A DNA stretch of 32,576 bases. Origin: a virus. Numbering within the stretch: position 1 is the first letter of the stretch; every line of letters starts with the position of its first letter. The stretch covers positions 1 to 32,576 of IMG/VR virus record IMGVR_UViG_3300012920_006502. One strand, written 5' to 3'. Of this stretch, positions 630 through 30,495 are shown one piece after another. The notes beneath the pieces are model-generated. The model saw only the letters and a program-made list of their open reading frames with translations. It did no database searches and had not been told where the DNA came from. A program made the translations under genes and the position numbers.

Positions 630-3164
630 ATGGCAGTGACTTGGATAACGCCAGCAGGAGACCTAGGAACACTTGAAGAAAGAATTATTACTTCAGTCTC
701 TATAGAAGCAACAACAGATACAAACAATCCAATTGAATATTCTGTAATAGCAGGAGAACTTCCTAAGGGTATGTTACTATCTGGAAGTACTATTAAAGGA
801 TCACCAGCGGAAGTAACAAAATTTACAGAATATAGATTTGTGATTCGTGCTGATGATAATGATAAAGAAAAGGACAGAACTTTTAAAATAAGCGTAAATG
901 GTGCAGACATTCCCGAATGGATTACTAAAGAAGGATTCTTAAATGTTGGACCAGGACAGGCGTACTTTGTTCTTGATGATGCACCGGTAGACTTTCAATT
1001 AGAAGCAACAGACGATGATGTAGTAGCAGGAGAAACTCTTGAATATTACCTAGTGCCTAACAGTGGAATATTACCATATGGTCTAAAACTTTCAAAGACA
1101 GGACGTATAAGCGGATTTACTCAACCTATTCCAGCCATTGATTATACAACCTCAGTAACAGGAGCATATGATACTGCTAGTTTTGATACAGTACCTTTAG
1201 ACATAGCACAAAATAACAGTCTAGGTTTTGATTCTTTTTTTTACGATAATCAATATTACGACTACGGCGAACAAGGAATTGTTCCAAAAAAATTAAGTAG
1301 AGTTTATACATTTGGTATAGCAATTACAGATGGAATAAATGCAGTCAACAGAATATTTAAAATATATGTTGTTTCAGAAGAATTTTTGAGAGCGGACAAC
1401 ACATTAGTACAAGTTGATACAAATCTTTTCCAAGCAGATGCAACCAGCAACAGAGTTCCTTTTTGGATTACAGACTCATATTTAGGAAGATACAGAGCAA
1501 ACAATTATATCACACTGTTCTTAGATGTGTATGATCCGCCAACACTTTCAGGTGTAATAAGTTATTTTATTGTTGAAAATAATCCTGACGGAACTCCTAG
1601 TACATTACCCCCTGGACTTGCGATAGATAACACAACTGGTGAACTTGCAGGTAAGGTTCCATACCAGGCTGCTGTTACAAAAACTTATCAATTTACTCTT
1701 AAAGCAGTGAACTTTCCAGCAAGTATAGCACAGCAGAATTACACACTTGTTGGTGATTGGAGTTCTACAAGATTTTATGAAACAGACGAAGCAGTTAGAT
1801 ATGACGGATTTGTATATGTTTGTAAACAAGAAAACATAAATCAATTGCCAATTACGCCTAATAGCATATACTGGGAAATTGGGGTAGGAACTACTGACAA
1901 AACATTTACAGTAGACATAATAGGCGAGATAGATAGCAGTATAGAATGGAACACTGATAGTGATTTAGGTATAATCAAACCTAACCAACCTAGTAGAAAA
2001 GCCGTAGAAGCAACAAGTTTATTATACGGCGGTAGAGTAAGTTATACTATTACGTCAGGAGAGTTACCTCCTGGATTAGAGTTTTTATCAAACGGAAATA
2101 TTACTGGCAAAGTTACACAATTTGCTGATGCAGACCAACAAGGACTAACAAGATTTTTTGATAGAGATAGTAGCACTGTAGACAGCACAGGAACTATTTC
2201 CTACAATACAAAATTTGATACATCTACTACTACCTATGATAAAGTTTACACTTTTACAGTGGAAGCATCTGATTCATCTGGACTTGCAAAAGATACTAAA
2301 ACATTTACAATTAAAGTAGTTGCAGACAGTCAAAAATCTTTTGCAAATATTTTTGTTAAAGCATTCCAAAATAAAGATAAAAGACTTAATTGGTTTAACT
2401 TTATTACAGATGCAACTATTTTTGTACCTGACGATATATACAGATACGGAGATACAAATTTTGGTATACAAACAGAAATAAAAAGTTTAATATTTGCAGG
2501 AATAGAAAGCACTTCTGCAACTCCTGTTGTACAGGCATTAAGTAGGAACCATTACAATAAACGTTTTACTTTTGGACCTATTAAAAAAGCACAAGCGAAA
2601 GACTCTACTACGCAACAAGTATTATATGAAGTGGTATATGTTGATTTAGTAGATGAATATGAAAAAGATAATAAAAGTATTTCTAGTGAAATAAATCTTC
2701 CAGACAATAGCAATAGCAAAGTTCTTGTTAGTTATGATAATATCACTATAGATAGCGATATTCCGTATGCAAGTGATGCTGATCTACAAAGAGTTTTTCC
2801 TAATTCTGTAAAAAATATGCGAAAAAGAATATCCGAAATAGGAGAAAGAGATAGAGAATTTTTGCCATTGTGGATGAGAAGCATTCAACAAACAAGCACC
2901 TATGAATTGGGTTTTACAAAAGCCCTTGTACTTTGTTATGCAAAGCCTAATAGAGCAGATTCAATTATAAGTAGGATTAAATCTAGTGGTTTTGACTTTA
3001 AAACTATTGACTTTACTGCTGATAGATACGTAATTGATATATTAAACGGGCAAATACAAGACACTTATGTGCAGTTTCCACAAGATAAAATAACAAATCA
3101 TGCTAATAATGCATCAAAATCTACAGAAGAAAAGCCATTCGCTCAGAAAAACATTCCGAGCTAG
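630..3164 (+). CDS. large Ig-like-repeat tail/fibre protein with a carbohydrate-binding-like module
   Basis: An 844-residue protein preceded by AGGAGGA (614-620). At least four putative-Ig (He_PIG/cadherin-like) motifs are visible: GELPKGM near residue 40, SGILPYGLKL near 145, LPPGLAIDNTTGELAGK near 323, and GELPPGLEFL near 476. Each is followed by a G(K/F/S) strand and a YxFTxxA-like strand. Between repeats three and four, residues about 373-416 (GDWSSTRFYETDEAVRYDG...VYVC...YWEIG) resemble a CBM5/12 chitin-binding fold by its W/Y/W spacing. The last 150 residues are not Ig-like, with charged helices around NMRKRISEIGERDREF. Such repeat proteins in phages are surface-binding tail components. 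I infer an adhesion role; which tail substructure it belongs to is unknown. Confidence 0.75.
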   Translation: MAVTWITPAGDLGTLEERIITSVSIEATTDTNNPIEYSVIAGELPKGMLLSGSTIKGSPAEVTKFTEYRFVIRADDNDKEKDRTFKISVNGADIPEWITKEGFLNVGPGQAYFVLDDAPVDFQLEATDDDVVAGETLEYYLVPNSGILPYGLKLSKTGRISGFTQPIPAIDYTTSVTGAYDTASFDTVPLDIAQNNSLGFDSFFYDNQYYDYGEQGIVPKKLSRVYTFGIAITDGINAVNRIFKIYVVSEEFLRADNTLVQVDTNLFQADATSNRVPFWITDSYLGRYRANNYITLFLDVYDPPTLSGVISYFIVENNPDGTPSTLPPGLAIDNTTGELAGKVPYQAAVTKTYQFTLKAVNFPASIAQQNYTLVGDWSSTRFYETDEAVRYDGFVYVCKQENINQLPITPNSIYWEIGVGTTDKTFTVDIIGEIDSSIEWNTDSDLGIIKPNQPSRKAVEATSLLYGGRVSYTITSGELPPGLEFLSNGNITGKVTQFADADQQGLTRFFDRDSSTVDSTGTISYNTKFDTSTTTYDKVYTFTVEASDSSGLAKDTKTFTIKVVADSQKSFANIFVKAFQNKDKRLNWFNFITDATIFVPDDIYRYGDTNFGIQTEIKSLIFAGIESTSATPVVQALSRNHYNKRFTFGPIKKAQAKDSTTQQVLYEVVYVDLVDEYEKDNKSISSEINLPDNSNSKVLVSYDNITIDSDIPYASDADLQRVFPNSVKNMRKRISEIGERDREFLPLWMRSIQQTSTYELGFTKALVLCYAKPNRADSIISRIKSSGFDFKTIDFTADRYVIDILNGQIQDTYVQFPQDKITNHANNASKSTEEKPFAQKNIPS

Positions 3165-3174
3165 ATTGCAATAT

Positions 3175-3182
3175 GATAAATA
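3175..3182 (+). promoter_or_regulatory. T4-type late promoter box GATAAATA
   Basis: An exact GATAAATA box 11 bases after the stop of the Ig-repeat gene and 27 bases before the GTG start of the gene at 3210. A CGGAG ribosome site (about 3198-3202) lies between box and start. Confidence 0.7.
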
Positions 3183-3209
3183 TATACTGAATACAACGGA
3201 GATAATAAC

Positions 3210-3824
3210 GTGGCAAGATCAAATAACAGTTTAATAAACTACCTAAGTATTAATGAAAACTTCCCTGTGGCAGGGCAGGATAATGACACACAAGTTTTTA
3301 GAGATAATGCAGATACAATAAAAACAAGTTTAAGAAGCGCAAAAGACGAACTGACAGATATCCTTACAAATGCTGCGTTTAAGGATGAAGATAATGATTT
3401 TGAACTTAAATCAATTTCTAGAGCCGTACTTCTTAACAATAGAGTAGGCAAATTTGACGGCGGATCTGTAGATGCATCTCCAACTACAATCGATTATCAA
3501 AATGGCGATTACCAAATATATAGAATAGGCGCCAGTATGAATATAGACTTTTTAAATTTTCCTGGCGATCCTGTATATACGGGCGAGTCAACTCCTATCG
3601 GAATGGGAAAAGTAACACTTGAATTATATAGCGATGGGTCATCTAGAACTGTAAACTTTTTAACTTCCGGCGGTACAATTATTAAAAGCAAAGACTTTCC
3701 AGGTTACACAAGCGGCGGAACTCCTGTACTAACGTTGACTTCAGCAACAGATCCAGTCATTATTGAAGTATTCAGACACAGCACTGCGGTTATATACATG
3801 AGATATATTGGCGCATTTGCATAA
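3210..3824 (+). CDS. fibre-like virion structural protein
   Basis: A 204-residue protein starting at GTG, preceded by CGGAGATAA and a late promoter box. The N-terminus contains NYLSINENFPVAGQDND and VFRDNADTIKTSLRSAKDEL (about residues 10-46), a pattern shared by fibre-like or neck-associated proteins of marine T4-like phages. DNDFELKSISRAVLLNN (about 60-76) echoes NNDLEFKSL in the gene at 40, suggesting a shared module. The remainder is Gly/Thr/Ser-rich and beta-like, ending VIYMRYIGAFA. No transmembrane segment is visible. Its stop shares one base with the start of the gene at 3824 (TAATG), so they are translationally coupled. Virion location is inferred. Confidence 0.65.
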   Translation: MARSNNSLINYLSINENFPVAGQDNDTQVFRDNADTIKTSLRSAKDELTDILTNAAFKDEDNDFELKSISRAVLLNNRVGKFDGGSVDASPTTIDYQNGDYQIYRIGASMNIDFLNFPGDPVYTGESTPIGMGKVTLELYSDGSSRTVNFLTSGGTIIKSKDFPGYTSGGTPVLTLTSATDPVIIEVFRHSTAVIYMRYIGAFA

Positions 3825-4060
3825 TGTTTCACCCTTTCCAAGAAGACCCAAAATTATTATCAGAAACTGAATTAACACAGAAAATATCCGAATTGGGCAA
3901 AAAATATACCCAAGCCGCACGTTTAGGCAATGGTGAACTGTTGACACAACTCCAAACATTTGTTACAATATATAGAGATGAATTACGTAGAAGAGCAATG
4001 CAACCTATAAAAACAAATGATGAAGATAAGGATTTGGATCAACTTATAAATGTCGACTAA
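3824..4060 (+). CDS. small conserved phage protein, function unknown
   Basis: A 78-residue, mostly helical, charged protein beginning MFHPFQEDPKLLSE. Residues about 15-60 look like a continuous amphipathic helix or helix pair (ELTQKISELGKKYTQAAR, then FVTIYRDELRRRAM). The acidic tail is EDKDLDQLINVD. The start overlaps the stop of the gene at 3210 in TAATG, and its own end overlaps the gene at 4050 by 11 bases, so it sits inside a translationally coupled string. I recognise the look of a conserved small phage protein but no function; a coiled-coil adaptor or assembly factor is possible. Confidence 0.6.
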   Translation: MFHPFQEDPKLLSETELTQKISELGKKYTQAARLGNGELLTQLQTFVTIYRDELRRRAMQPIKTNDEDKDLDQLINVD

Positions 4061-4514
4061 CACAATCACAGAAGTAATTGACGGTATTAAAAAACACGGT
4101 GCTGATATATTAGAGCATTGTGTAATAGACAATGCTGACCAGTACATAGATAGAATAAACAAAGAATTTCTCAACTATCCTAAACCAAAAAATAAATTAG
4201 ATACAAACAATTGGTTTATGCCCGACAGTTATAAAAATATGGATATTGAAAAGTTTGTTTTAATGCAATGCAAAACAGATGAACAAATAGAACGAGTAAA
4301 TATAGAACTTAAAGAATTTGAAAAAAGAAATCTTATGATGCTACTTAAACAGGTAAAATACATAGTAGATACATTAAGATCAAATAATATTGTTTGGGGT
4401 GTAGGAAGAGGTTCAAGCGTAGCAAGTCTTGTGCTTCACATATTAGGGGTCCACAAGATTGATCCGATTAAATACAATATACCACTTAACGAATTCTTTA
4501 AACAAGGAGACTAA
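4050..4514 (+). CDS. fragment-like DNA polymerase III alpha (DnaE) homologue lacking catalytic aspartates
   Basis: A 154-residue protein. Residues about 90-150 align by eye with the DnaE palm region just before the active site: a long helix (QIERVNIELKEFEK...KQVKYIVDTLR), the nucleotide-binding GVGRGSSVASLVLHILGV (DnaE form GPGRGSGAGSLVAYAL), and DPIKYNIPLNEFF (DnaE form DPL.YDLLFERF). It ends there, before the PDxDxDF segment that carries the catalytic aspartates, and no PHP domain precedes it. It therefore cannot be a complete polymerase. The phage has its own family-B polymerase at 27832. It may be a decoy, a dNTP sensor or a replisome-binding domain; that is inference. The ATG overlaps the preceding gene by 11 bases. 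Confidence 0.65.
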   Translation: MSTNTITEVIDGIKKHGADILEHCVIDNADQYIDRINKEFLNYPKPKNKLDTNNWFMPDSYKNMDIEKFVLMQCKTDEQIERVNIELKEFEKRNLMMLLKQVKYIVDTLRSNNIVWGVGRGSSVASLVLHILGVHKIDPIKYNIPLNEFFKQGD

Positions 4515-6132: not shown

Positions 6133-6491
6133 TGTCTGATCAAAATAAGATTTACAGTGACGGTTTAAAATTTAAATCTTTAAACATTGAAGGAACTGTT
6201 GTTAAAAAGGACGATAGATATATTGTAAAAGATAACACTGTCCTTAAAAATCTTATTGTAAGTAGCACTCGATTAAATCCAAAGAAAAGTACATCTGGAC
6301 ACTTCCACAAAGGACAAGAAGAAGTCTATATGTTTATAGAAGGCCATGGCACCATGGAACTTGATGGTGTAATGCATAAAGTAGAAGCAGGGGACACAGT
6401 TTTAATACAAGATGGTGTCTTTCATCGTGTCCATGCAGACACAGTAGAACTATATTTTGTATGTGTGTTTGATGGAAGGAGAACCGTTTGA
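6132..6491 (+). CDS. cupin-domain protein
   Basis: A 119-residue single cupin with a GTG start sharing one base with the preceding stop. Motif 1 is GHFHKGQEEVYMFIEGHG (about residues 57-74), carrying the H-x-H...E metal ligands. Motif 2 is GDTVLIQDGVFHRV (about 87-100), with the last metal-binding His. The protein resembles the sugar-isomerase and epimerase-type small cupins. It lies between the MazG-like gene and hemC with 4-base overlaps, so it is part of the metabolic operon. The substrate is unknown; a nucleotide-sugar role would fit the cytidylyltransferase at 7218, but that is a guess. Confidence 0.75.
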   Translation: MSDQNKIYSDGLKFKSLNIEGTVVKKDDRYIVKDNTVLKNLIVSSTRLNPKKSTSGHFHKGQEEVYMFIEGHGTMELDGVMHKVEAGDTVLIQDGVFHRVHADTVELYFVCVFDGRRTV

Positions 6492-7225
6492 AAGTAGGAG
6501 TTCGTGGTAGTAAGTTAGCCTTGACCTATGCGCAAAAAGCAATCGATGCATTAGGCGAAGGTCAAATAGAAATAATCAAAACGGACGGAGACCTTCATCC
6601 TGATACTCCTATACATGAGATTGGAGGCAAGGGTGTGTTCTGCAATGCTATTGAACAAGCTCTTGTACAAGGACTTATTGATGTAGCAGTGCATAGTTTA
6701 AAGGATATGCCTGGAGATGTAGAACATCCAGATCTACATATATGCGCGGTGTTGGAACGTGCAAGACCTTATGATGTTATAATAGGCAAAGTATTTGATA
6801 GTTGTATTATAGGAACAAGTAGTCCTAGACGTAAAGCACAATTAGAACAACTATATGAAAATCATCATGTACAAATAAAACCTATAAGAGGAAATATAGA
6901 TACTAGACTTGCAAAATTAGATGCAGGTGAATATGATGCTATTGTACTTGCAGAAGCAGGATTAGATGCATTAGGTATTAAAAGAGATTACATAAGATTG
7001 CCTATTGTTCCAGCGGTTGGACAAGGTATAATTGCATTGCAGACTCGCAAAGACGATACAAAAACAAATGATATCGTTAGTAAAGTAAATCACAAATTAA
7101 CATATGCTCAGGCAAAATTAGAAAGAGCGTTGTTAAAAGGAATAGCAGGAGATTGTCATACTAAAGTTGCAGGCCATGCAACAGGTAGCAATCCTATTAA
7201 ACTAGAGGCAGTATATTATGAGTGA
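6488..7225 (+). CDS. hemC: hydroxymethylbilane synthase (porphobilinogen deaminase), C-terminally short
   Basis: A 245-residue HemC, the enzyme that polymerises four porphobilinogens into hydroxymethylbilane in heme, siroheme, cobalamin and chlorophyll synthesis. Visible motifs: RGSKLAL (6-12), DVAVHSLKDMP (65-75) with catalytic Asp73, IGTSSPRRKAQL (about 107-118), RGNIDTRLAKLDAGEYDAI (about 135-153), PAVGQGIIALQTR (about 175-187), and Cys223 in GDCHTKVAGHA, the expected dipyrromethane attachment site. All catalytic landmarks are intact. Only 22 residues follow that Cys, against about 70 in E. coli (313 total), so domain 3 is truncated to its core. The start is TTG, behind GGAAGGAG, overlapping the cupin stop as TTGA. 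I infer an auxiliary metabolic gene that boosts host tetrapyrrole flux. Confidence 0.88.
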   Translation: MKVGVRGSKLALTYAQKAIDALGEGQIEIIKTDGDLHPDTPIHEIGGKGVFCNAIEQALVQGLIDVAVHSLKDMPGDVEHPDLHICAVLERARPYDVIIGKVFDSCIIGTSSPRRKAQLEQLYENHHVQIKPIRGNIDTRLAKLDAGEYDAIVLAEAGLDALGIKRDYIRLPIVPAVGQGIIALQTRKDDTKTNDIVSKVNHKLTYAQAKLERALLKGIAGDCHTKVAGHATGSNPIKLEAVYYE

Positions 7226-7637
7226 CAAACGTGTAGGATTTACAGCGTCTGCTTTTGATTTATTTCATAGTGGACATGTTGCAATGTTGAAGGAGGCGAG
7301 AAGTAATTGTGATTATATGATTGTCGGCATACAAACAGATCCAACAATAGATCGTCCAGAAAAAAATCAACCAATACAAAGTGTATTTGAAAGATACGTG
7401 CAACTAGAAGGTTGCAAATATATTGACGAAATAATTCCATATGCTACAGAACAAGATCTTGTTGATATTTTGTTAACCTATAAAATTGACGTCCGTTTTA
7501 TTGGAGAAGAATACAAAAATAAGGATTTTACAGGCAAACAATTATGTGTTGACAAAGGCATAGAAATACATTATAATAGTAGACAACATTCATTTAGTAC
7601 AAGTGGATTACGAAAAAGGATAAGTGAGGCAAAATGA
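7218..7637 (+). CDS. TagD-like cytidylyltransferase family protein
   Basis: A 139-residue HIGH-family nucleotidyltransferase close in size to glycerol-3-phosphate cytidylyltransferase. HSGH (17-20) in TASAFDLFHSGHVAML is the nucleotide-binding HxGH. RYVQLEGCKYIDEIIPY (about 54-70) matches the RxxxL..CRYVDEVI region. FIGEEY and the C-terminal SFSTSGLRKRI replace the usual RTxGISTTxIxxRI loop, with the first Arg offset (SRQHSFSTSG). Family members couple CTP to glycerol-3-phosphate, ethanolamine phosphate or sugars. The variant final loop makes the substrate uncertain. It overlaps hemC by 8 bases and the gp44 gene by 4. Confidence 0.75.
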   Translation: MSDKRVGFTASAFDLFHSGHVAMLKEARSNCDYMIVGIQTDPTIDRPEKNQPIQSVFERYVQLEGCKYIDEIIPYATEQDLVDILLTYKIDVRFIGEEYKNKDFTGKQLCVDKGIEIHYNSRQHSFSTSGLRKRISEAK

Positions 7638-8548
7638 AAGATTTATGGGTAGAAAAATATCGTCCTAAGAACTTAGATGGCTATGTTTTTAGAGATGAAA
7701 ATCAACGTAAACAAGCAAAACTTTGGATTAAGGAAAAAAGTATTCCTCATTTATTGTTTAGTGGTGCAGCCGGTATCGGCAAAACTACTATGGCAAAGAT
7801 TCTTATAAATGAATTAGAAATTCCAGAGTATGACGTATTAGAACTTAACGCTAGTAGAACAAATAGTGTTGACGAAGTAAGAAATAAAATCACAAACTTT
7901 GTACAAATGATTCCATTTGGTCCTTTCAAAGTTGTACTATTAGATGAGGCGGATTACTTGTCTCCTAATGCACAAGCAGCGTTACGTGGTGTTATGGAAG
8001 AGTATCATAGCACATCAAGATTTATTTTAACTTGTAACTATCCAAACAGAATTATTCCTGCAATACACAGTAGGTGTCAAGGCTATCATATTGAACGTAT
8101 TGATCAAACAGAATTTACTGCAAGAGTTGCAACTATTCTAGTTGAAGAACAAGTAGATGTTGAACTTGAAACACTTGATTTGTATGTTAAGGCTACATAT
8201 CCAGACTTGCGTAAATGTATAAATATGGTACAGCAGAACGTTACAGATGCCAAACTTCATGCTCCTAGCAAAGGTGACGAAGGTGAAGCAGACTGGAAGT
8301 TCGATATGGTTGAACTATTTAAGGCTGGAAAGATTAGCGAAGCAAGGCAGTTACTATGTGGCAAATTACGTGCTGAAGAAATGGAAGAAGTATATCGTTG
8401 GTTGTATGATAATATATCTATATTCGGCGATGAACAAAAACAAGATACTGCTGTACTTGTAATCAAACAAGGATTAGTAGATCATACGCTTGTTGCTGAC
8501 CCTGAGATTAATTTAGCAGCAGTGTTAATTAAGTTAGGTAGACTATGA
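7634..8548 (+). CDS. 44: gp44-like clamp-loader AAA+ subunit
   Basis: A 304-residue AAA+ ATPase of the RFC/T4 gp44 type (T4 gp44 is 319), which loads the gp45 sliding clamp onto primer ends. It begins LWVEKYRPKNLDGYVF (the WxEKYRP box), then Walker A GAAGIGKT (44-51), Walker B VVLLDEADYLS (about 98-108), sensor 1 FILTCNYPNRI, and the SRC arginine-finger motif in HSRCQGYHI. In T4 the small subunit gp62 lies next to gp44. Here the next gene is a membrane protein, and no gp62-like gene is recognised in the window. ATG overlaps the preceding stop and the end overlaps the following start (ATGA), so it is embedded in the metabolic operon. Confidence 0.9.
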   Translation: MKDLWVEKYRPKNLDGYVFRDENQRKQAKLWIKEKSIPHLLFSGAAGIGKTTMAKILINELEIPEYDVLELNASRTNSVDEVRNKITNFVQMIPFGPFKVVLLDEADYLSPNAQAALRGVMEEYHSTSRFILTCNYPNRIIPAIHSRCQGYHIERIDQTEFTARVATILVEEQVDVELETLDLYVKATYPDLRKCINMVQQNVTDAKLHAPSKGDEGEADWKFDMVELFKAGKISEARQLLCGKLRAEEMEEVYRWLYDNISIFGDEQKQDTAVLVIKQGLVDHTLVADPEINLAAVLIKLGRL

Positions 8549-8791: not shown

Positions 8792-9142
8792 ATGACACAT
8801 GTAGTTGACGACAAATGTATTAATTGTAAACACACAACCTGTGTCAGTGTTTGCCCTGTTGATTGTTTTTATGAAGGAGAAAACATGTTAGTGATCAATC
8901 CTGATGAGTGTATAGATTGCGGCGTGTGTGTTCCTGAATGTCCTGAAGACGCTATATGGCAAACTGATGACGAAGAAAATAAATGGTATAAACACAATCT
9001 ATATTTTAGTACAGATGGTAACTTTCCAAGTATTACAGAAGAACAACAGCCTATGGATAACTATGTAGAGTATGCTAAAGAAAATTACAAAGAAGATAAA
9101 ACAAAATTATTTAAAGCAATCCCAGCAATACAGGTAGATTAA
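8792..9142 (+). CDS. seven-iron [3Fe-4S][4Fe-4S] ferredoxin
   Basis: A 116-residue low-potential electron carrier of the FdxA / Azotobacter FdI type. Cys9, Cys12, Cys17, Cys21 and Cys25 (first motif, ending CPVDCFYEG) and Cys40, Cys43, Cys46 and Cys50 ([16 protein letters not shown]) keep the FdI spacing exactly, shifted by one residue. FdI uses C8, C16 and C49 for the 3Fe cluster and C20, C39, C42 and C45 for the 4Fe cluster; the matching residues are all present. A C-terminal tail follows, as in bacterial FdxA. No strong ribosome site is visible, and the start lies one base after the preceding stop, so coupling is likely. SufE, three genes on, and HemC upstream suggest a redox or Fe-S function. 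Known phage ferredoxins I recall are mainly the 2Fe-2S plant type. Confidence 0.88.
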
Positions 9143-9145
9143 ATT

Positions 9146-9445
9146 ATGACAGGTATAGTTTTTTGGATAGGATTTACAGTAATGGTATTAAACGAAGGTT
9201 TCGTTATAATGCGTCATGTACACCCTTGGTTTGCACAAAAACGTGAAGCACTAATGGCCAAGTATGGTAGTAATTGGAAGCGTTTTCATGCTTTCTTTGA
9301 TTATGTATGGATCGGTGGTGTTATATTAGGCGTAGCAATAGATATTTCTAACTGGAAGTTCTACGCCACAGTTCTTGCAACCTTTTGGAGTATAGTCGCA
9401 GTATTTGTATACTTGCCATTACTCGTAAAGAAAATTAGGAAATGA
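9146..9445 (+). CDS. small multi-pass membrane protein
   Basis: A 99-residue protein with three predicted membrane helices: VFWIGFTVMVLNEGFVIM (5-22), YVWIGGVILGVAIDI (about 53-67), and FYATVLATFWSIVAVFVYLP (about 72-91). The loop between helices one and two is basic and His/Trp-rich (RHVHPWFAQKREALM, then NWKRFHAFF). The C-terminus is KKIRK. Its position between the ferredoxin and SufE suggests a role tied to electron transfer or iron, perhaps a membrane partner of the ferredoxin, but no family or heme-ligand pair can be asserted. The end overlaps the SufE start by 4 bases. Confidence 0.65.
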   Translation: MTGIVFWIGFTVMVLNEGFVIMRHVHPWFAQKREALMAKYGSNWKRFHAFFDYVWIGGVILGVAIDISNWKFYATVLATFWSIVAVFVYLPLLVKKIRK

Positions 9446-9834
9446 AACTAGATAAGTGGTCGGAAGATTTAAACTTACTAGAAGGCACAGATAGATTAGC
9501 ATATCTAGTGGACCTTGCAAAAAAAGCAACTTCATTACCTAAAGAACTTAGAACTGATGATAGACTTATAGGAGGATGTATAAGTCAGATATGGGTAGAC
9601 GTGGGCGTTGTTGAAGGCAACGTTCAAGTTTATTATGATAGTGATGCGATGATAACAAAAGGCATCACCAGTATAGTAGCAGATTGTTTTTCAGACATAC
9701 CTGTTGCAGAAGCAAAACAAATTACATTCCAAGACTTTGAAAAACTTAATATCCAACAATTATTAACACCGCAACGCAGAAATGGATTAGGAAACCTTAT
9801 AGAAACTATTAGACAGAAAATACACTGTCTTTAA
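9442..9834 (+). CDS. sufE: SufE-like sulfur-transfer protein
   Basis: A 130-residue SufE/CsdE family protein (E. coli SufE 138). SufE accepts persulfide sulfur from the cysteine desulfurase SufS and passes it to the SufBCD scaffold during Fe-S cluster assembly. The acceptor loop is RLIGGCISQIWVDV, with Cys46 at the position of SufE Cys51 (PGCQSQVW type). The C-terminal helix region LLTPQRRNGLGNLIETI matches the LSPSRxNGLxxM signature, and the expected fold elements are present at full length. No suf scaffold or desulfurase is in the window, so it must act with host SufS. It is the last gene of the operon. The pairing with a phage ferredoxin suggests the phage supports cluster assembly during infection. 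Confidence 0.85.
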   Translation: MKLDKWSEDLNLLEGTDRLAYLVDLAKKATSLPKELRTDDRLIGGCISQIWVDVGVVEGNVQVYYDSDAMITKGITSIVADCFSDIPVAEAKQITFQDFEKLNIQQLLTPQRRNGLGNLIETIRQKIHCL

Positions 9835-9880: not shown

Positions 9881-10600
9881 TTAACTATCTCCGTATATAC
9901 TTAGAATTTCTTTTACCGCTTCATGTCTTTCTACATCTGCTCTTGTAAACTTACAGATATCCACAAACTGATGATTATTAAAGTTGTTATACAACTCAAG
10001 GAACTGTAATAAACCGTTATTACTAGGCCTATCTGCCTGATGTAAGTCACCGGTTACAATCATCTTAGATCCTTCACCTAACCTAGTTAAAAGCATTTTC
10101 ATTTGACTAGGTGTAGCATTTTGCATTTCATCCGCAATAATTACGGAGTTTTTAAACGTTCTACCTCTCATGTATGCTAATGGAGCAATTTCAACTACTC
10201 CTTCTCTTAGTTGTCTTTCTACTTCTGCTTGGCAAAAGTTTTCCGAAAAAACATCAAAAATAGGACGAGTCCACGGTGCCATTTTTTCATTTAAATCTCC
10301 TGGCAAAAATCCATGACTTTCGTCTACTGAAACTGCAGGTCTAGTTATTACAATTTTGTTACATAATTTGTCTCGAAATTCGTTAATTGCCCATTGAACT
10401 GCAATCATTGTTTTACCTGTGCCAGCAGGACCTATAGCAAATACTATATGCTTGTCCTTGTTGTCTAATTTTTGTAGATAAAATTTCTGATTTAGGTTTT
10501 TGGGAACTACCTCGTTTCTCTTTGATTTATGTGAGTTTATATTAACTATGTTGTTGTACGCTGCGTTATGTGCCGCATGGGCTTTGTTTTTTCTCTTCAT
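9881..10600 (-). CDS. phoH: PhoH-like P-loop ATPase
   Basis: A 239-residue PhoH-domain protein. Walker A is GPAGTGKT (57-64), and Walker B is SVIIADEMQNATPSQMK (about 152-168). MIVTGDLHQAD follows, with the family GDxxQxD motif, plus VVEIAPLAYMRGRTF (about 135-149). The PhoH fold resembles the ATPase core of superfamily 1 helicases; its cellular role is unsettled. It is common in marine phages regardless of phosphate status. The ATG follows GGAGG on the minus strand (near 10612-10616). It is one of only two minus-strand genes, facing sufE with a gap of 46 bases. The first 35 residues are basic and low-complexity. Confidence 0.9.
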   Translation of the reverse strand: MKRKNKAHAAHNAAYNNIVNINSHKSKRNEVVPKNLNQKFYLQKLDNKDKHIVFAIGPAGTGKTMIAVQWAINEFRDKLCNKIVITRPAVSVDESHGFLPGDLNEKMAPWTRPIFDVFSENFCQAEVERQLREGVVEIAPLAYMRGRTFKNSVIIADEMQNATPSQMKMLLTRLGEGSKMIVTGDLHQADRPSNNGLLQFLELYNNFNNHQFVDICKFTRADVERHEAVKEILSIYGDS

Positions 10601-12009: not shown

Positions 12010-12522
12010 ATGGCAAAAGAAAATTATCAAGCATGTTTAGATATGATATTACATCATGAGGGTGGATACGTTAATCATCCTAAAGACCCAGGTGGTGAAA
12101 CTAACCTTGGTGTTACAAAAAGAGTTTACGAAGATTTCGGCGGCACAAAAAATATGAAAGACTTGACAGTCGAAGACGTTGCGCCAATCTATGAAAAGAA
12201 CTATTGGGGTCGCATGAAGTGCGATGATATTCCTAGTGGTTTAGATTTATGTGTATTTGATTTTGGAGTTAATGCTGGAACAGGACGTTCTGCAAAGTAT
12301 CTACAGCGTATGATCGGCACAGTTGCTGATGGCGGTATTGGTCCTAATACACTTAAGGCTTTAGGAAACTATATTGAATCAGAAGGTGTTGAGAAAGCAA
12401 TTAGAGACTTCCAAGAAGCACGTCAGTCTTATTACGAAAAGTTAAGCACATTTGAAACTTTCGGAAGAGGTTGGACACGCAGAGTAAATGAAACAACTGA
12501 AGCCGCTATCAAAATGATATGA
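12010..12522 (+). CDS. GH108 endolysin (N-acetylmuramidase)
   Basis: A 170-residue peptidoglycan hydrolase of the GH108 type. The N-terminal domain begins with the catalytic motif LHHEGGYVNHPKDPGGETN, with Glu17 as the expected acid. GVTKRVYEDFGG and YEKNYWGRM follow, matching the GVTxxxY...YxxxYW signature. The C-terminal half (CVFDFGVNAGTGRSAKYLQR, then DGGIGPNTLKALG) matches the peptidoglycan-binding part common to this family. There is no signal peptide, so release needs a holin; a candidate is at 13968. AAGGAT precedes the ATG. The stop overlaps the start of the small ORF at 12519 (ATGA). Confidence 0.9.
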   Translation: MAKENYQACLDMILHHEGGYVNHPKDPGGETNLGVTKRVYEDFGGTKNMKDLTVEDVAPIYEKNYWGRMKCDDIPSGLDLCVFDFGVNAGTGRSAKYLQRMIGTVADGGIGPNTLKALGNYIESEGVEKAIRDFQEARQSYYEKLSTFETFGRGWTRRVNETTEAAIKMI

Positions 12523-12662
12523 GCAAAGTTTGCCAAAACTGCGGAAGAGAACACGAAGGCAGATTAATAGAGACATTTATGGACGGAGATAACAAACCCT
12601 TAGAAATAGTTGTTTGTACCTATCCACGTTACCAAGAGGAAAACGATGAACAAAGTAATTAA
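12519..12662 (+). CDS. 47-residue zinc-ribbon-like protein
   Basis: A short ORF filling the gap between the endolysin and the acyl-carrier-like gene. Its ATG overlaps the endolysin stop (ATGA), and its 3' end overlaps the next gene by 17 bases. The protein begins MSKVCQNCGREHEGRLIETF and continues with MDGDNKPLEIVVCTYPRYQ. The CxxC pair at residues 5 and 8, His12 and Cys33 could form a small zinc site. Tight coupling on both sides and sensible composition argue it is real, although it is short. Function is unknown. Confidence 0.6.
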   Translation: MSKVCQNCGREHEGRLIETFMDGDNKPLEIVVCTYPRYQEENDEQSN

Positions 12663-12861
12663 AGCAATATCAGATCACTTAGGTATTGATGAATCTAAAG
12701 TTGTACCAACAGCACATTTAATAGATGATTTAGGTGCTGACGACTTTGATATCGTTGAACTTACAATTGCTATACAAGAAGCAACAGGTAAAAGCATTTC
12801 AAGCGAAGACGAAGCCAACGTTCAAACTGTTGGAGATTTTATTAAACTGGTAGAAGCATAA
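12646..12861 (+). CDS. acyl-carrier-protein-like protein lacking the carrier serine
   Basis: A 71-residue four-helix acyl-carrier fold. The alignment by eye with AcpP is clear: HLGIDESKVVPTAHLIDDLG (11-30), then ADDFDIVELTIAIQEA (31-46), then SISSEDEANVQTVGDFIKLV. The AcpP prosthetic-group motif is GADSLD; here it is GADDFD, so residue 33 is Asp and 4'-phosphopantetheine cannot be attached at the normal site. The remaining helix II contact residues (D-x-VEL) are kept, so it could still bind ACP partners such as AcpS, IscS, SpoT-type or acyl-transfer enzymes. The ATG follows AAGAGGA; an upstream TTG at 12610 is unlikely. It lies within the lysis region. Confidence 0.8.
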   Translation: MNKVIKAISDHLGIDESKVVPTAHLIDDLGADDFDIVELTIAIQEATGKSISSEDEANVQTVGDFIKLVEA

Positions 12862-13346
12862 TGTTTGGATCAATTAAAATAGCAATGATTGTAATTATGT
12901 TGGCTGGTGCAGGCGGCGGCTTTATGTATGTCAAGACATTAAAGTCTGATTTAGCAGTAAGCGAAGCAAACAATGCCAAACTATTAGACAGCGTGGCAGA
13001 ACAACAATCTGTAATTGAACAGCAGAAAAAAGATTTTACTGCAATACTAGAAGCAAATCAAGAGCTACAAGAGCAGAATCAAGTATTAAAAACTGAATTT
13101 GCAGCACTTGATAAACGCTTTAATAAAATAAACGGAAAAGGCGAAGTGCGTGATATTGGTGATCTAGCAACTAAAAGGCCTGAGTCCGTCGAGAAAATAA
13201 TTAACAAAGGAAGTACCAATGCAATGAGATGTCAAGAAATTGCAATGGGCGCACCTTTAACGGAGAAAGAGAAAAATGCAACTAAGAAGTCTCAAATCAA
13301 TTCTGAGTGTCCTAGTCTTGCTAATCCTAACTACGTCCCTTACTAG
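12861..13346 (+). CDS. i-spanin (Rz-like) candidate
   Basis: A 161-residue inner-membrane-anchored protein: one N-terminal helix, KIAMIVIMLAGAGGGFMYV (6-24), followed by a long periplasmic coiled coil from about 28 to 100 (LKSDLAVSEANNAKLLDSVA, then VIEQQKKDFTAILEANQELQ). The C-terminal part has two Cys and a YVPY end. This is the Rz architecture that links the inner membrane to an outer-membrane lipoprotein and fuses the membranes at the end of lysis. The lipoprotein gene at 13276 starts inside its 3' end in another frame, the classic nested Rz/Rz1 layout. The ATG shares a base with the preceding stop. Confidence 0.75.
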   Translation: MFGSIKIAMIVIMLAGAGGGFMYVKTLKSDLAVSEANNAKLLDSVAEQQSVIEQQKKDFTAILEANQELQEQNQVLKTEFAALDKRFNKINGKGEVRDIGDLATKRPESVEKIINKGSTNAMRCQEIAMGAPLTEKEKNATKKSQINSECPSLANPNYVPY

Positions 13347-13659
13347 TTGTAGTACAGTATCTAAGTTAGATGTATTCAAGACAGAAGTAGAACGAGCACC
13401 TCTTAATCTTCCTAATCCTGAAACACCTAAATTAGAAGAGGTTCGTTGGATTATTATCACGTCGGAAAATGCAGAAGAAGTATTTTCAAAATTGAAAGAG
13501 CAAGGTAAAGATCCTGTTCTGTTTGGATTAAGCGACGAAGATTACGAATTACTATCTAAAAACTTTGCACAAATTCGTGCTTACATGATACAACAAGGTA
13601 TAACGTTAGATCAGTATCGCAAGTACTATGAGCCTGTAGATAAACCTAAATCTGAATAA
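13276..13659 (+). CDS. o-spanin-like outer-membrane lipoprotein (Rz1-like)
   Basis: A 127-residue lipoprotein whose first 71 bases overlap the Rz-like gene out of frame; GGAGAAAG precedes the ATG. The signal peptide is MQLRSLKSILSVLVLLILTT followed by lipobox LTSC with Cys25. The mature part starts with a Ser/Thr stretch and a Pro-rich segment (APLNLPNPETPKLEE, about 41-55), as in Rz1 proteins. A folded C-terminal region follows, ending in KYYEPVDKPKSE. It is longer than phage lambda Rz1. Its role as spanin partner is inferred from nesting, lipobox and endolysin neighbour. Confidence 0.75.
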   Translation: MQLRSLKSILSVLVLLILTTSLTSCSTVSKLDVFKTEVERAPLNLPNPETPKLEEVRWIIITSENAEEVFSKLKEQGKDPVLFGLSDEDYELLSKNFAQIRAYMIQQGITLDQYRKYYEPVDKPKSE

Positions 13660-13686: not shown

Positions 13687-13968
13687 ATGTGGGAAATGAT
13701 TGAAAGGATGGCTAGCGATAGATTATGGATTTACACAGCATTAGTAGGTTCGCTATTCGGTTTAGCATTTTCAACATATTTTAAAAGCACACGTATAGGT
13801 TTATGGTTATATGGTCATTTTGATCGCATAGCAGATTTTTTAGTAGAACGATATGGGTGGACTTGGTTACAGCAACCGGAAGATGCTTGGCGTAAAAAAT
13901 ATCCATACGTAACTAAAAAAATAGACGAATTAGAAAAGCGTATTAAAACATTAGAGGGTAAAAAGTAA
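13687..13968 (+). CDS. small membrane protein in the lysis region
   Basis: A 93-residue protein with AAGGAG before the ATG. One clear membrane helix, LWIYTALVGSLFGLAFSTYF (13-32), is followed by an amphipathic stretch (IGLWLYGHFDRIADFLVERY, about 37-56). A charged C-terminal helix, KKIDELEKRIKTLEGKK, could form a coiled coil. Its position between spanins and the holin candidate, with a one-base overlap to the latter, suggests an accessory lysis function such as an antiholin. That is inference; no family is recognised. Confidence 0.6.
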   Translation: MWEMIERMASDRLWIYTALVGSLFGLAFSTYFKSTRIGLWLYGHFDRIADFLVERYGWTWLQQPEDAWRKKYPYVTKKIDELEKRIKTLEGKK

Positions 13969-14282
13969 TGAGCGATGATGTAAAGGTTGCAGAACCTAAA
14001 CAAAAAATTAAAGTAGACTTAGAAGTTGACACTAGTGTTAAAGACCTAGGTGTGAACCCATACGCAAAATTGATACACCTAGCAAGAGCAGTTGATGCTT
14101 GGAGAATCTTTCCAAGATTATTTTTAACTGTTTATATTGTACTGTTATACAAATGTGTCATTTGGTATATGGAATTAGCGGCTCCTACAATGGAACAATC
14201 AGGTTTGATTAGTATTGTGGTTGGTGCTGGCGCTGCTTGGTTTGGATTATATACAGGATCCAAATCTAAATCAGACAAGTAA
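13968..14282 (+). CDS. probable holin
   Basis: A 104-residue protein with a charged N-terminus and two membrane helices: LFLTVYIVLLYKCVIWYMEL (about 51-70) and LISIVVGAGAAWFGLYTG (about 80-97), ending in a basic-polar GSKSKSDK tail. The pattern WYMELAAPTMEQSG followed by VVGAGAAWFGLYTGSK resembles two-TM holins I know from marine T4-like phages. A holin releases the signal-less GH108 endolysin at 12010 into the periplasm. It is translationally coupled to the preceding gene (TAATG). The call rests on topology, neighbours and a remembered motif, not on an alignment. Confidence 0.6.
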   Translation: MSDDVKVAEPKQKIKVDLEVDTSVKDLGVNPYAKLIHLARAVDAWRIFPRLFLTVYIVLLYKCVIWYMELAAPTMEQSGLISIVVGAGAAWFGLYTGSKSKSDK

Positions 14283-27831: not shown

Positions 27832-30495
27832 ATGAGCTACGTAGATGCATTCTATGATCGTAATGAAGATATAATACGTGTTGTAGAAAGAAAAAATAAC
27901 AAAAGACATTTTACAGAATATTCCCCAAGACACGTTTTTTATTACAAAGACCCAAGAGGCAAACATCAATCTATTTACGGTGACCAGTTACAACGTGTTA
28001 CTGCAAAGAACATAAAAGAACTTCGCAAAGAACTTGCAATTCATTCCAATAAAAAATTATACGAAAGCGATATAAATCCAATTTATCGTTGTTTAGAAGA
28101 CAACTATTTAAATGTTGATGCTCCTAAACTTAATATAGCGTTTTGGGATATTGAGGTTGACTTTGATCCCGAGCGTGGCTATGCAAGTCCAGAAGATGCG
28201 TTTATGCCTATTACATCAATTGCTGTACACTTGCAGTGGATGGATGAACTAATTTGTTTAGCAATTCCGCCTAAAACATTATCAATGGCAGAAGCGAAAA
28301 AAGCAATTGATGGCATTCCAAATACTATACTTTATGACAATGAAGCGGATATGCTTGATGCCTTTTTAGATCTTATTCAAGATGCTGATGTACTAAGTGG
28401 TTGGAACAGTGAAGGTTATGATATGCCTTATACTGTAAACAGAATTACAAAAGTTTTAAGCAAAGAAGATACTAGACGTTTGTGTCTATGGGATCAATAT
28501 CCTAAGAAAAGAACATATGAAAAGTTTGGTAAAGAATCTCAAACATATGATTTAGTTGGCCGTGTGCATGTAGACAGTTTAGAACTTTATAGAAAATACA
28601 ACTATGAAGAACGTCATACATATCGACTTGATGCTATTGGTGAACTAGAAGTAGGTGAAAAGAAAACTGTTTATGAAGGCAGCCTAGATGCTCTTTACAA
28701 CAATGATTTCAGAACATTTATTGAATACAACAGGCAAGATACTGCACTACTTAATAAACTTGATAAGAAACTAAAGTTTATTGATCTTGCAAATACTATT
28801 GCACATGAAAATACTGTGCTTATACAAACAACAATGGGTGCTGTTGCTGTTACAGAACAAGGTATTATTAACGAAGCACATAGACGTGGAATGATTGTTC
28901 CGAACAGAGTGAAACGTGAGCCAGGTAGTGAGCCAGCGGCAGGTGCATATGTTGCATATCCTAAGAAAGGAATTCACGAATGGATTGGTAGTGTTGACTT
29001 GAATTCACTATATCCATCTGTTATTAGAGCATTGAACATGGGTCCAGAAACTGTAGTAGGTCAACTTAGACAGGATGGAACTAAAGCACATATTGATTCA
29101 CAAATGGCAAAAGGTAAAAGTTTTGCTAGTGCGTGGGAAGGTATGTTTGGATCAGTTGAATATAGTTCAGTTATGGAAAAAGAAATTAGTAGAGAGATTA
29201 CTGTTGACTGGGAAAATGGTGACAGTGATAAACTAAGTGCTGCACAGATATATGATCTAATCTATGAAAGCAATCAACCATGGATGCTTAGTGCTAACGG
29301 CACAATCTTTACGTATGAAAAAGAAGGTATTATTCCTGGACTACTTGCACGTTGGTATAAAGAACGTAAAGAAATGCAGGCAAAGCAGAAAGAAAGTCAA
29401 AATGCAGGAAACAAGATTGAAGAAGAATACTGGGCAAAGCGTCAGTTGGTTAAAAAGATTCTACTCAATAGTTTGTATGGTGCTATTCTTAATCCTGGTT
29501 GTAGGTTTTTCGACAACAGGATTGGTCAAAGTGTTACACTTACAGGACGTAGCATTACCAAACATATGGCTGCTAAGATCAATGAGATAGTAACAGGAGA
29601 ATATGATCATACAGGCAAAGCAATTGTATATGGTGATACAGATTCAACATACTTTAGTGCATACAGTACACTTAAAAAAGATATAGAATCTGGTAGTATT
29701 CCGTGGACAAAAGACAGTGTAGTTGAACTGTATGACACAATTGGTGAAAATGCAAACGCAACATTTGGTAAGTTTATGAGTTCAGCATTTCATTGTCCTA
29801 AGAAGCGTTCAGAGGTAATTGCTGCTGCTAGAGAAATTGTTGCAAGTAAAGGCTTGTTTATAACAAAGAAACGCTATGCAGTGCTTTATTATGATATTGA
29901 AGGTTTTAGAACAGACACAGAAGGCAAAGCAGGTAAAATTAAAGCAATGGGTCTTGATCTTAAACGTTCTGATACTCCGGTTGTAATACAAGACTTCTTA
30001 AGCAATGTATTAGAAAAGGTGCTATCTGGTAAAGAAAAAGAAGAAGTACTTGATTATATTACAGAATTTAGAACAGAGTTCAAAGCACGTCCTGGATGGG
30101 AAAAAGGCTCTCCTAAACGTGCAAACAAAATTACAGAATATGAAGCCAAAGAAAAGAAAGCAGGCAAAGCAAATATGCCTGGACACGTAAGAGCAAGTAT
30201 TAATTGGAATACACTTAAACGTATGAACGGTGACAAATATTCTGTAAACATTACAGACGGTGCAAAAGTAATTGTTTGTAAAGTAAAAGACAATCCAATG
30301 GGATATACAAGTGTAGCGTATCCGGTAGATGAACTAAGACTTCCGGATTGGTTTAAAGAGTTGCCTTTCGATGATGCTACAATGGAAAACACAGTAATCG
30401 ATGAAAAACTTAAAAACTTAATTGGCGTTTTGGAATGGGACATAAGTCAAACTAGAAATGACAATAACTTTAACAGTTTATTTGATTTTGAGTAA
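27832..30495 (+). CDS. 43: family-B DNA polymerase (gp43)
   Basis: An 887-residue replicative polymerase with 3'-5' exonuclease (T4 gp43 is 898). Exo I is FWDIEVDFD (Asp106, Glu108), Exo II GWNSEGYDMPY (about 199-209), and Exo III YNRQDTALL (about 300-308). The palm has motif A SVDLNSLYPSVIRAL (about 387-401), motif B KKILLNSLYGAILN (about 541-554), and motif C YGDTDSTYF (from Tyr600). The C-terminus ends NFNSLFDFE, like the T4 clamp-binding tail (SLDFLF-type). It appears full-length and active. GGAGAA precedes the ATG. It is followed by gp45; in T4 the order is 43-regA-62-44-45, so the replication cluster is rearranged here, with no regA-like gene between. Confidence 0.95.
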   Translation: MSYVDAFYDRNEDIIRVVERKNNKRHFTEYSPRHVFYYKDPRGKHQSIYGDQLQRVTAKNIKELRKELAIHSNKKLYESDINPIYRCLEDNYLNVDAPKLNIAFWDIEVDFDPERGYASPEDAFMPITSIAVHLQWMDELICLAIPPKTLSMAEAKKAIDGIPNTILYDNEADMLDAFLDLIQDADVLSGWNSEGYDMPYTVNRITKVLSKEDTRRLCLWDQYPKKRTYEKFGKESQTYDLVGRVHVDSLELYRKYNYEERHTYRLDAIGELEVGEKKTVYEGSLDALYNNDFRTFIEYNRQDTALLNKLDKKLKFIDLANTIAHENTVLIQTTMGAVAVTEQGIINEAHRRGMIVPNRVKREPGSEPAAGAYVAYPKKGIHEWIGSVDLNSLYPSVIRALNMGPETVVGQLRQDGTKAHIDSQMAKGKSFASAWEGMFGSVEYSSVMEKEISREITVDWENGDSDKLSAAQIYDLIYESNQPWMLSANGTIFTYEKEGIIPGLLARWYKERKEMQAKQKESQNAGNKIEEEYWAKRQLVKKILLNSLYGAILNPGCRFFDNRIGQSVTLTGRSITKHMAAKINEIVTGEYDHTGKAIVYGDTDSTYFSAYSTLKKDIESGSIPWTKDSVVELYDTIGENANATFGKFMSSAFHCPKKRSEVIAAAREIVASKGLFITKKRYAVLYYDIEGFRTDTEGKAGKIKAMGLDLKRSDTPVVIQDFLSNVLEKVLSGKEKEEVLDYITEFRTEFKARPGWEKGSPKRANKITEYEAKEKKAGKANMPGHVRASINWNTLKRMNGDKYSVNITDGAKVIVCKVKDNPMGYTSVAYPVDELRLPDWFKELPFDDATMENTVIDEKLKNLIGVLEWDISQTRNDNNFNSLFDFE

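Follow-up and report, generated by a model that had tools for sequence, protein, structure and literature searches.

A conserved phage family of acyl carrier protein-like proteins that lack the phosphopantetheine serine

Results

An acyl carrier protein-like gene without its serine in a lysis cassette

The window, the whole 32,576-nucleotide stretch of viral DNA that was analyzed (IMG/VR record IMGVR_UViG_3300012920_006502), contains a lysis cassette in which a small open reading frame with homology to acyl carrier proteins (ACPs) is placed immediately upstream of the inner-membrane spanin (i-spanin) gene (Table 1). Direct translation gives a 71-amino acid protein, MNKVIKAISDHLGIDESKVVPTAHLIDDLGADDFDIVELTIAIQEATGKSISSEDEANVQTVGDFIKLVEA, with a stop codon after the last residue. 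Its start codon is backed by an upstream AGAGG, by the TAATG overlap with the downstream gene and by a conserved start in relatives. The stop/start overlaps of the cassette suggest coupled translation, and from the operon context we infer that the ACP-like gene is expressed late.

Table 1. Features of the cassette surrounding the ACP-like gene (window coordinates).
Feature	Position	Strand	Basis and remarks
Endolysin, GH108 + PG_binding_3	12010..12522	+	Pfam, PHROG 315
Small CxxC-containing ORF, 47 aa	12519..12662	+	Overlaps endolysin stop (ATGA) and ACP-like start
AGAGG ribosome-binding-like site	12635..12639	+	6 bases 5' of ACP-like ATG; read from sequence
Serine-less ACP-like protein, 71 aa	12646..12861	+	Translation, PF00550, PHROG 5934, AlphaFold2, alignment
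Rz-like inner-membrane spanin	12861..13346	+	PHROG 739; ATG overlaps ACP-like stop (TAATG)
Rz1-like outer spanin	13276..13659	+	PHROG 812; overlaps i-spanin gene
Cassette gene w26, no function assigned	13687..13968	+	One membrane segment predicted by eye
Holin-like membrane protein	13968..14282	+	PHROG 10198 (unknown function); 'holin' from position and membrane segments only

The protein matches PF00550 with 34.1 bits (cut-off 20.8) and PHROG 5934, annotated 'acyl carrier protein', and a profile of its family recovers genuine ACPs from the PDB with E values down to 7e-21. Its AlphaFold2 model (pLDDT 94.3) has four helices, and the PDB structures closest to it are holo- and acyl-ACPs (TM about 0.9, rmsd about 1 Å), so we are confident in predicting that the product folds like an ACP. 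The residue that is normally the modified serine in ACPs is Asp33 (codon GAC, 12742-12744), the first residue of helix II, which aligns with Ser36 of Escherichia coli AcpP; Phe34 replaces Leu37 of AcpP, and GADSLD of ACPs thus reads GADDFD. A sequence-only reading of this DNA had noted aspartate at the phosphopantetheine site of a preserved ACP fold, and the translation, PF00550, PHROG 5934 and the AlphaFold2 model agree. Because the modifiable serine is absent, the protein should be incapable of being loaded as an acyl carrier. The same reading had expected no normal acyl carriage, and this expectation extends from Asp33 in the window to all family members, which have Asp, Glu or Pro at the site.

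Several other genes characterize the cassette and the window. The 47-amino acid CxxC ORF has no Pfam or PHROG match and recurs in most cassettes, whether or not they carry the ACP-like gene. The holin-like protein has 83-94% identical counterparts in dozens of short marine viral contigs, which otherwise have none of the tested window genes; more than 580 relatives were found, marking a very widely exchanged gene. In Pelagibacter phage HTVC008M a spanin homologue directly follows the upstream ORF, with no intervening gene; this i-spanin homologue (locus L169, 5001-5534) is annotated as two gapped ORFs and is possibly split or frameshifted. Elsewhere the window encodes HemC (porphobilinogen deaminase; 6488-7225, 245 amino acids), which matches the first Pfam domain only, appears truncated at its end relative to cellular HemC, and has a match among the sampled loci only in L006. 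A 4Fe-4S ferredoxin gene (8792-9142) is common to most relatives. A 154-amino acid stand-alone piece of the DNA polymerase III alpha domain (4050-4514; PF07733, PHROG 11127) occurs alongside a T4-type DNA polymerase (27832-30495).

For that T4-type polymerase, PhoH (9881-10600) and the clamp loader (7634-8548), the nearest phages are the jumbo phages Phosso, Atu_ph07 and PA5oct; the window phage is suggested to belong to an uncultured marine lineage with large genomes. Neither the matches of these three proteins nor that of SufE pointed to a specific host.

The loss of the serine is conserved

Relatives were collected by a protein-pattern scan of IMG/VR. One of the patterns ended before the serine site, so serine-bearing members could have been found. 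Nonetheless, the 27 close relatives (70-85% identity) have aspartate (13) or glutamate (14) at the site and none has serine. In total, 48 non-serine viral contigs were found besides the window; aspartate, glutamate or proline occupies the site in them, and the flanking leucine is always phenylalanine. The serine is present in all 80 of the nearest bacterial ACPs and in viral ACPs of at most 51% identity, except in a separate lineage of two contigs, L018 and L019, which has aspartate.

An independent scan used the neighboring i-spanin gene as bait and was blind to the ACP. It returned 80 cassettes, 27 with the ACP-like gene (12 with Asp, 13 with Glu, 2 with Pro, 0 with Ser) and 53 without it; an all-frame HMM search of these 53 loci found no divergent ACP hidden there. 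Phenylalanine follows the site in 24/24 non-serine sequences compared to 1/122 serine ones, counts that represent related sequences and not independent events. No close relative was found among 50,697 phage records searched for isolated relatives.

Whether relatives carry serine was the check that the earlier reading had proposed, and its outcome, 27 of 27 with Asp or Glu, rules out a sequencing error or single-genome change; the ACP-blind scan rules out chance or biased sampling. Judged from these alignments, the loss of the serine is conserved and is more than one genome's change.

Three sub-clades share the trait

Following the two proline cases led to a sub-clade of 14 contigs reading ADPFDT(I/V)EL, with the same phenylalanine after the site and the same fold when modeled. 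In those contigs whose context is covered, the Pro-type gene follows the spanins and precedes the holin-like gene, instead of standing 5' of the i-spanin. A third sub-clade (L372, L373 and L375-L377) has Asp or Glu at the site. Its gene context was read in L376, a 204-kb contig, in which the ACP-like gene is flanked by a virion structural gene on one side and a tail-sheath-stabilizer homologue on the other. The place of the gene among lysis genes is therefore not constant: the Asp/Glu and Pro sub-clades have it in a lysis cassette and L376 in a tail-sheath-stabilizer operon.

With the trait column and its neighbor masked, the three non-serine sub-clades group together (bootstrap 98, SH-aLRT 84) in a tree built on few columns, for which the bootstrap had not fully settled. 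The sister of this group is L033, a serine-bearing freshwater viral ACP. L018 and L019 are placed outside the main group, but the test does not reject a tree in which all non-serine sequences arose once (p-AU 0.44). On the tree the site switches at least nine times among Ser, Asp, Glu and Pro.

Aspartate, glutamate and proline are all commonly favored in the first turn of an alpha helix, where the site falls. The restriction to these residues, with repeated switching among them, argues that the site has no charge requirement. Most simply, one or two losses of carrier chemistry were followed by relaxation of the site to helix-start residues. The sequence-only reading had instead suggested that the aspartate mimics the charge of the modified serine, in which case an acidic residue would imitate the holo-ACP phosphodiester and fool SpoT, IscS-type complexes and fatty-acid enzymes. 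Two of the sub-clades do have aspartate or glutamate, with several switches, as does the separate L018/L019 lineage. However, the Pro sub-clade is uncharged at the site while keeping the flanking phenylalanine, the fold and the position, so charge mimicry of phosphoserine is not a common property; Asp, Glu and Pro equally suit a helix start; and both the presence of changes of the M44I/F50S type and the lack of SufE conservation, described below, speak against the partners invoked. We consider charge mimicry very unlikely.

Remodeled surface residues and disfavored ACP partners

In the Asp/Glu lysis-cassette and Pro sub-clades, D35, D38 and E41 of helix II (AcpP numbering) are invariant, and the changes E49A, F50T and M44I/V are common to both; the window's sub-clade additionally has E47Q. 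Taken together, these positions show a putative recognition surface remodeled around D35, D38 and E41. As acidic and hydrophobic contacts of C-terminal helix II are lost, many ACP partners would be expected to bind poorly.

SpoT was among the partners proposed earlier. In E. coli, M44I and F50S were among ACP mutations selected for loss of the SpoT two-hybrid interaction; F50 forms the bottom of the acyl pocket, and the loss was confirmed by pull-down and co-purification for F50S but not for M44I, which showed it in only one two-hybrid orientation (PMC3340395). The phage family has Ile or Val at position 44 and Thr at position 50, which weakly disfavors SpoT. Binding of the IscS/ISD11 type is generally known to use the acylated arm of ACP. 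Since the phage protein cannot carry this arm, an IscS/ISD-type complex, likewise proposed earlier, is disfavored too. The suggested link to the window's Fe-S genes fares no better. The window SufE gene (9442-9834), whose product is 41% identical to a match in a 1.2 Mb genome of alphaproteobacterial class, recurs in just one of the 38 other contigs that were searched, many of which are fragments; this contig, G015, is the one that contains L019 and is part of the separate Asp lineage. SufE is not common to the family, and the Fe-S link fails.

Each of 18 carrier contigs has exactly one PF00550 gene. A search of 34 contigs, many of which are fragmentary, gave no second, serine-bearing ACP, and a search of 23 phage contigs, mostly fragments, gave no PPTase. 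The latter result bears on whether the protein might carry a group via another residue or chemistry. The pocket region of the fold is kept, and L354 and L018/L019 have a radical-SAM gene in the vicinity of the ACP-like one. In the first of these (1160-3219) the ACP-like gene is of the Pro type, and in the separate lineage (1559-6207 of L019, and L018) the Asp-bearing gene follows two radical-SAM genes. Yet we know of no 4'-phosphopantetheine acceptor role for Pro, Asp or Glu, F50 has become Thr, and the PPTase is missing from the contigs searched. We regard such alternative carriage as the least probable of the explanations weighed here.

The gene is an optional and exchanged module under selection

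As an insertion of ~200 bases, the ACP-like gene separates the small ORF from the i-spanin gene, and it is optional, with otherwise similar cassettes lacking it. With a median dN/dS of about 0.22, it is by this estimate under purifying selection. Its similarity does not track phage relatedness: the window protein is 85% identical to that of L001, with virion protein 2, DnaJ and deformylase only 40-44% identical, and 79% identical to that of L003, with 86-93% for the same three proteins. More generally, virion protein 2 and DnaJ are 37-51% identical in phages whose ACP-like proteins match at 70-85%. Synonymous divergence, as a proportion of sites, is also lower in the ACP-like gene (0.345) than in the adjacent spanin (0.596). 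Both patterns point to recent exchange between phages, and a different codon constraint could add to the low synonymous divergence.

A captured host ACP that has degenerated and lost its function would account for the absence of the gene from two thirds of related cassettes. It would not account for the dN/dS value, for a site limited to Asp, Glu and Pro, or for ACP-like identities that stay high in phages with diverged virion protein 2 and DnaJ, a pattern consistent with exchange and retention, and we think it highly improbable. As far as comparative data can tell, the gene is an optional, exchanged and selected module of late operons.

Discussion

A disarmed ACP that may act by binding

A protein that cannot be loaded would act by binding. 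We tentatively favor, while recognizing that it may well prove wrong, an obligate-apo ACP mimic that binds proteins, most likely as a decoy at the ACP-docking site of a host enzyme; a decoy role had been raised by the sequence-only reading and stays plausible. The family would represent a phage-specific, cytoplasmic, late offshoot of ACP that lost the phosphopantetheine serine for good and kept the fold and D35/D38/E41. Its target would be a host ACP-dependent enzyme, for example the glycerol-3-phosphate or lipid A acyltransferases, fatty-acid synthase enzymes or AcpS. Late in infection the mimic would sit on the ACP-docking patch of this enzyme, and the outcome would be slowed host lipid synthesis or a membrane tuned before lysis. 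There is precedent for such an effect: E. coli growth is suppressed by overexpression of Ser39Ala, an obligate apo-ACP (PMC4736557), and apo-ACP is described as an inhibitor of glycerol-3-phosphate acyltransferase (Keating 1995, as cited in PMC4736557). It is this precedent, together with an unloadable ACP acting by binding, that leads us to prefer the host-enzyme decoy. A bolder proposal, that these phage proteins form a natural class of obligate-apo ACPs that jam an ACP-dependent host enzyme at a late stage of infection, such as AcpS or an acyltransferase for phospholipids or lipid A, is less likely, although possible.

Two observations count against a host decoy: the contacts lost from the second half of helix II (E49A, F50T and M44I/V, with E47Q in the window's sub-clade), and the L376-type sub-clade, where adjacency to a tail-sheath stabilizer also fits a role in the virion or its assembly. 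The main rival is accordingly an adapter internal to the phage, in which the ACP fold is reused to bind a late phage protein and no host ACP enzyme is involved; candidates are a spanin, the holin-like protein, the tail-sheath stabilizer or another virion protein, and ACP serves as a structural subunit elsewhere. All three sub-clades have the gene within late modules (by the small ORF and i-spanin; by spanins and the holin-like gene; by structural genes near the tail-sheath stabilizer), the stop/start overlaps hint at translation coupled to its neighbors, and the residues lost from helix II are those that contact host partners. Against this, the 53 of 80 closely related cassettes that have the same spanins without the ACP-like gene indicate that it is dispensable for the lysis machinery, and since the neighbors vary among sub-clades, position singles out no phage partner common to all. 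We therefore view an adapter as possible but rather unlikely.

Relation to known ACPs

The phage family shares with bacterial AcpP-type ACPs the fold, the length, the D35/D38/E41 face and the PF00550 and PHROG 5934 matches, and the nearest bacterial ACPs are 34-52% identical to the phage protein. It differs in having no modifiable serine, in L37F, and, in the Asp/Glu lysis-cassette and Pro sub-clades, in M44I/V, E49A and F50T. Obligate apo-ACP mutants (E. coli S36T, Synechococcus ACP S39A) likewise cannot be phosphopantetheinylated, and S36T cannot substitute for the wild type in E. coli (PMC3340395). These mutants were made in the laboratory, whereas the phages have the serine-less state naturally, conserve it and combine it with further changes.

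Phage-encoded ACPs are themselves known. Prochlorococcus phages P-HM1, P-HM2 and MED4-213 encode an ACP (T4-GC457), located near a baseplate hub gene in P-HM1 and P-HM2, and the latter two also encode an ACP synthetase (PMC3037559); unlike the window family, this ACP has the serine and is apparently a working carrier. Roseobacter prophages, also from phages of marine bacteria, carry fabG-acpP-fabF (PMC8224337), but their acpP has a described phosphopantetheine attachment site and is linked to fatty-acid genes. The literature searched, coverage of which was incomplete, did not turn up any conserved family of phage ACPs without the serine; serine-bearing phage ACPs are thus known already, and the conserved serine-less family is apparently new.

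ACP genes of phages are usually taken for auxiliary metabolic genes (AMGs), and here is a selected, exchanged marine family predicted to be unable to carry acyl groups, whose function the automated label 'acyl carrier protein, AMG' would misstate. The family may serve as a natural tool for telling what ACP does by binding from what it does as a carrier, and, as a possible means by which viruses control host lipid synthesis, it can be tested directly. If the decoy reading is true, a virus would reprogram membrane synthesis using a disarmed copy of its host's own carrier.
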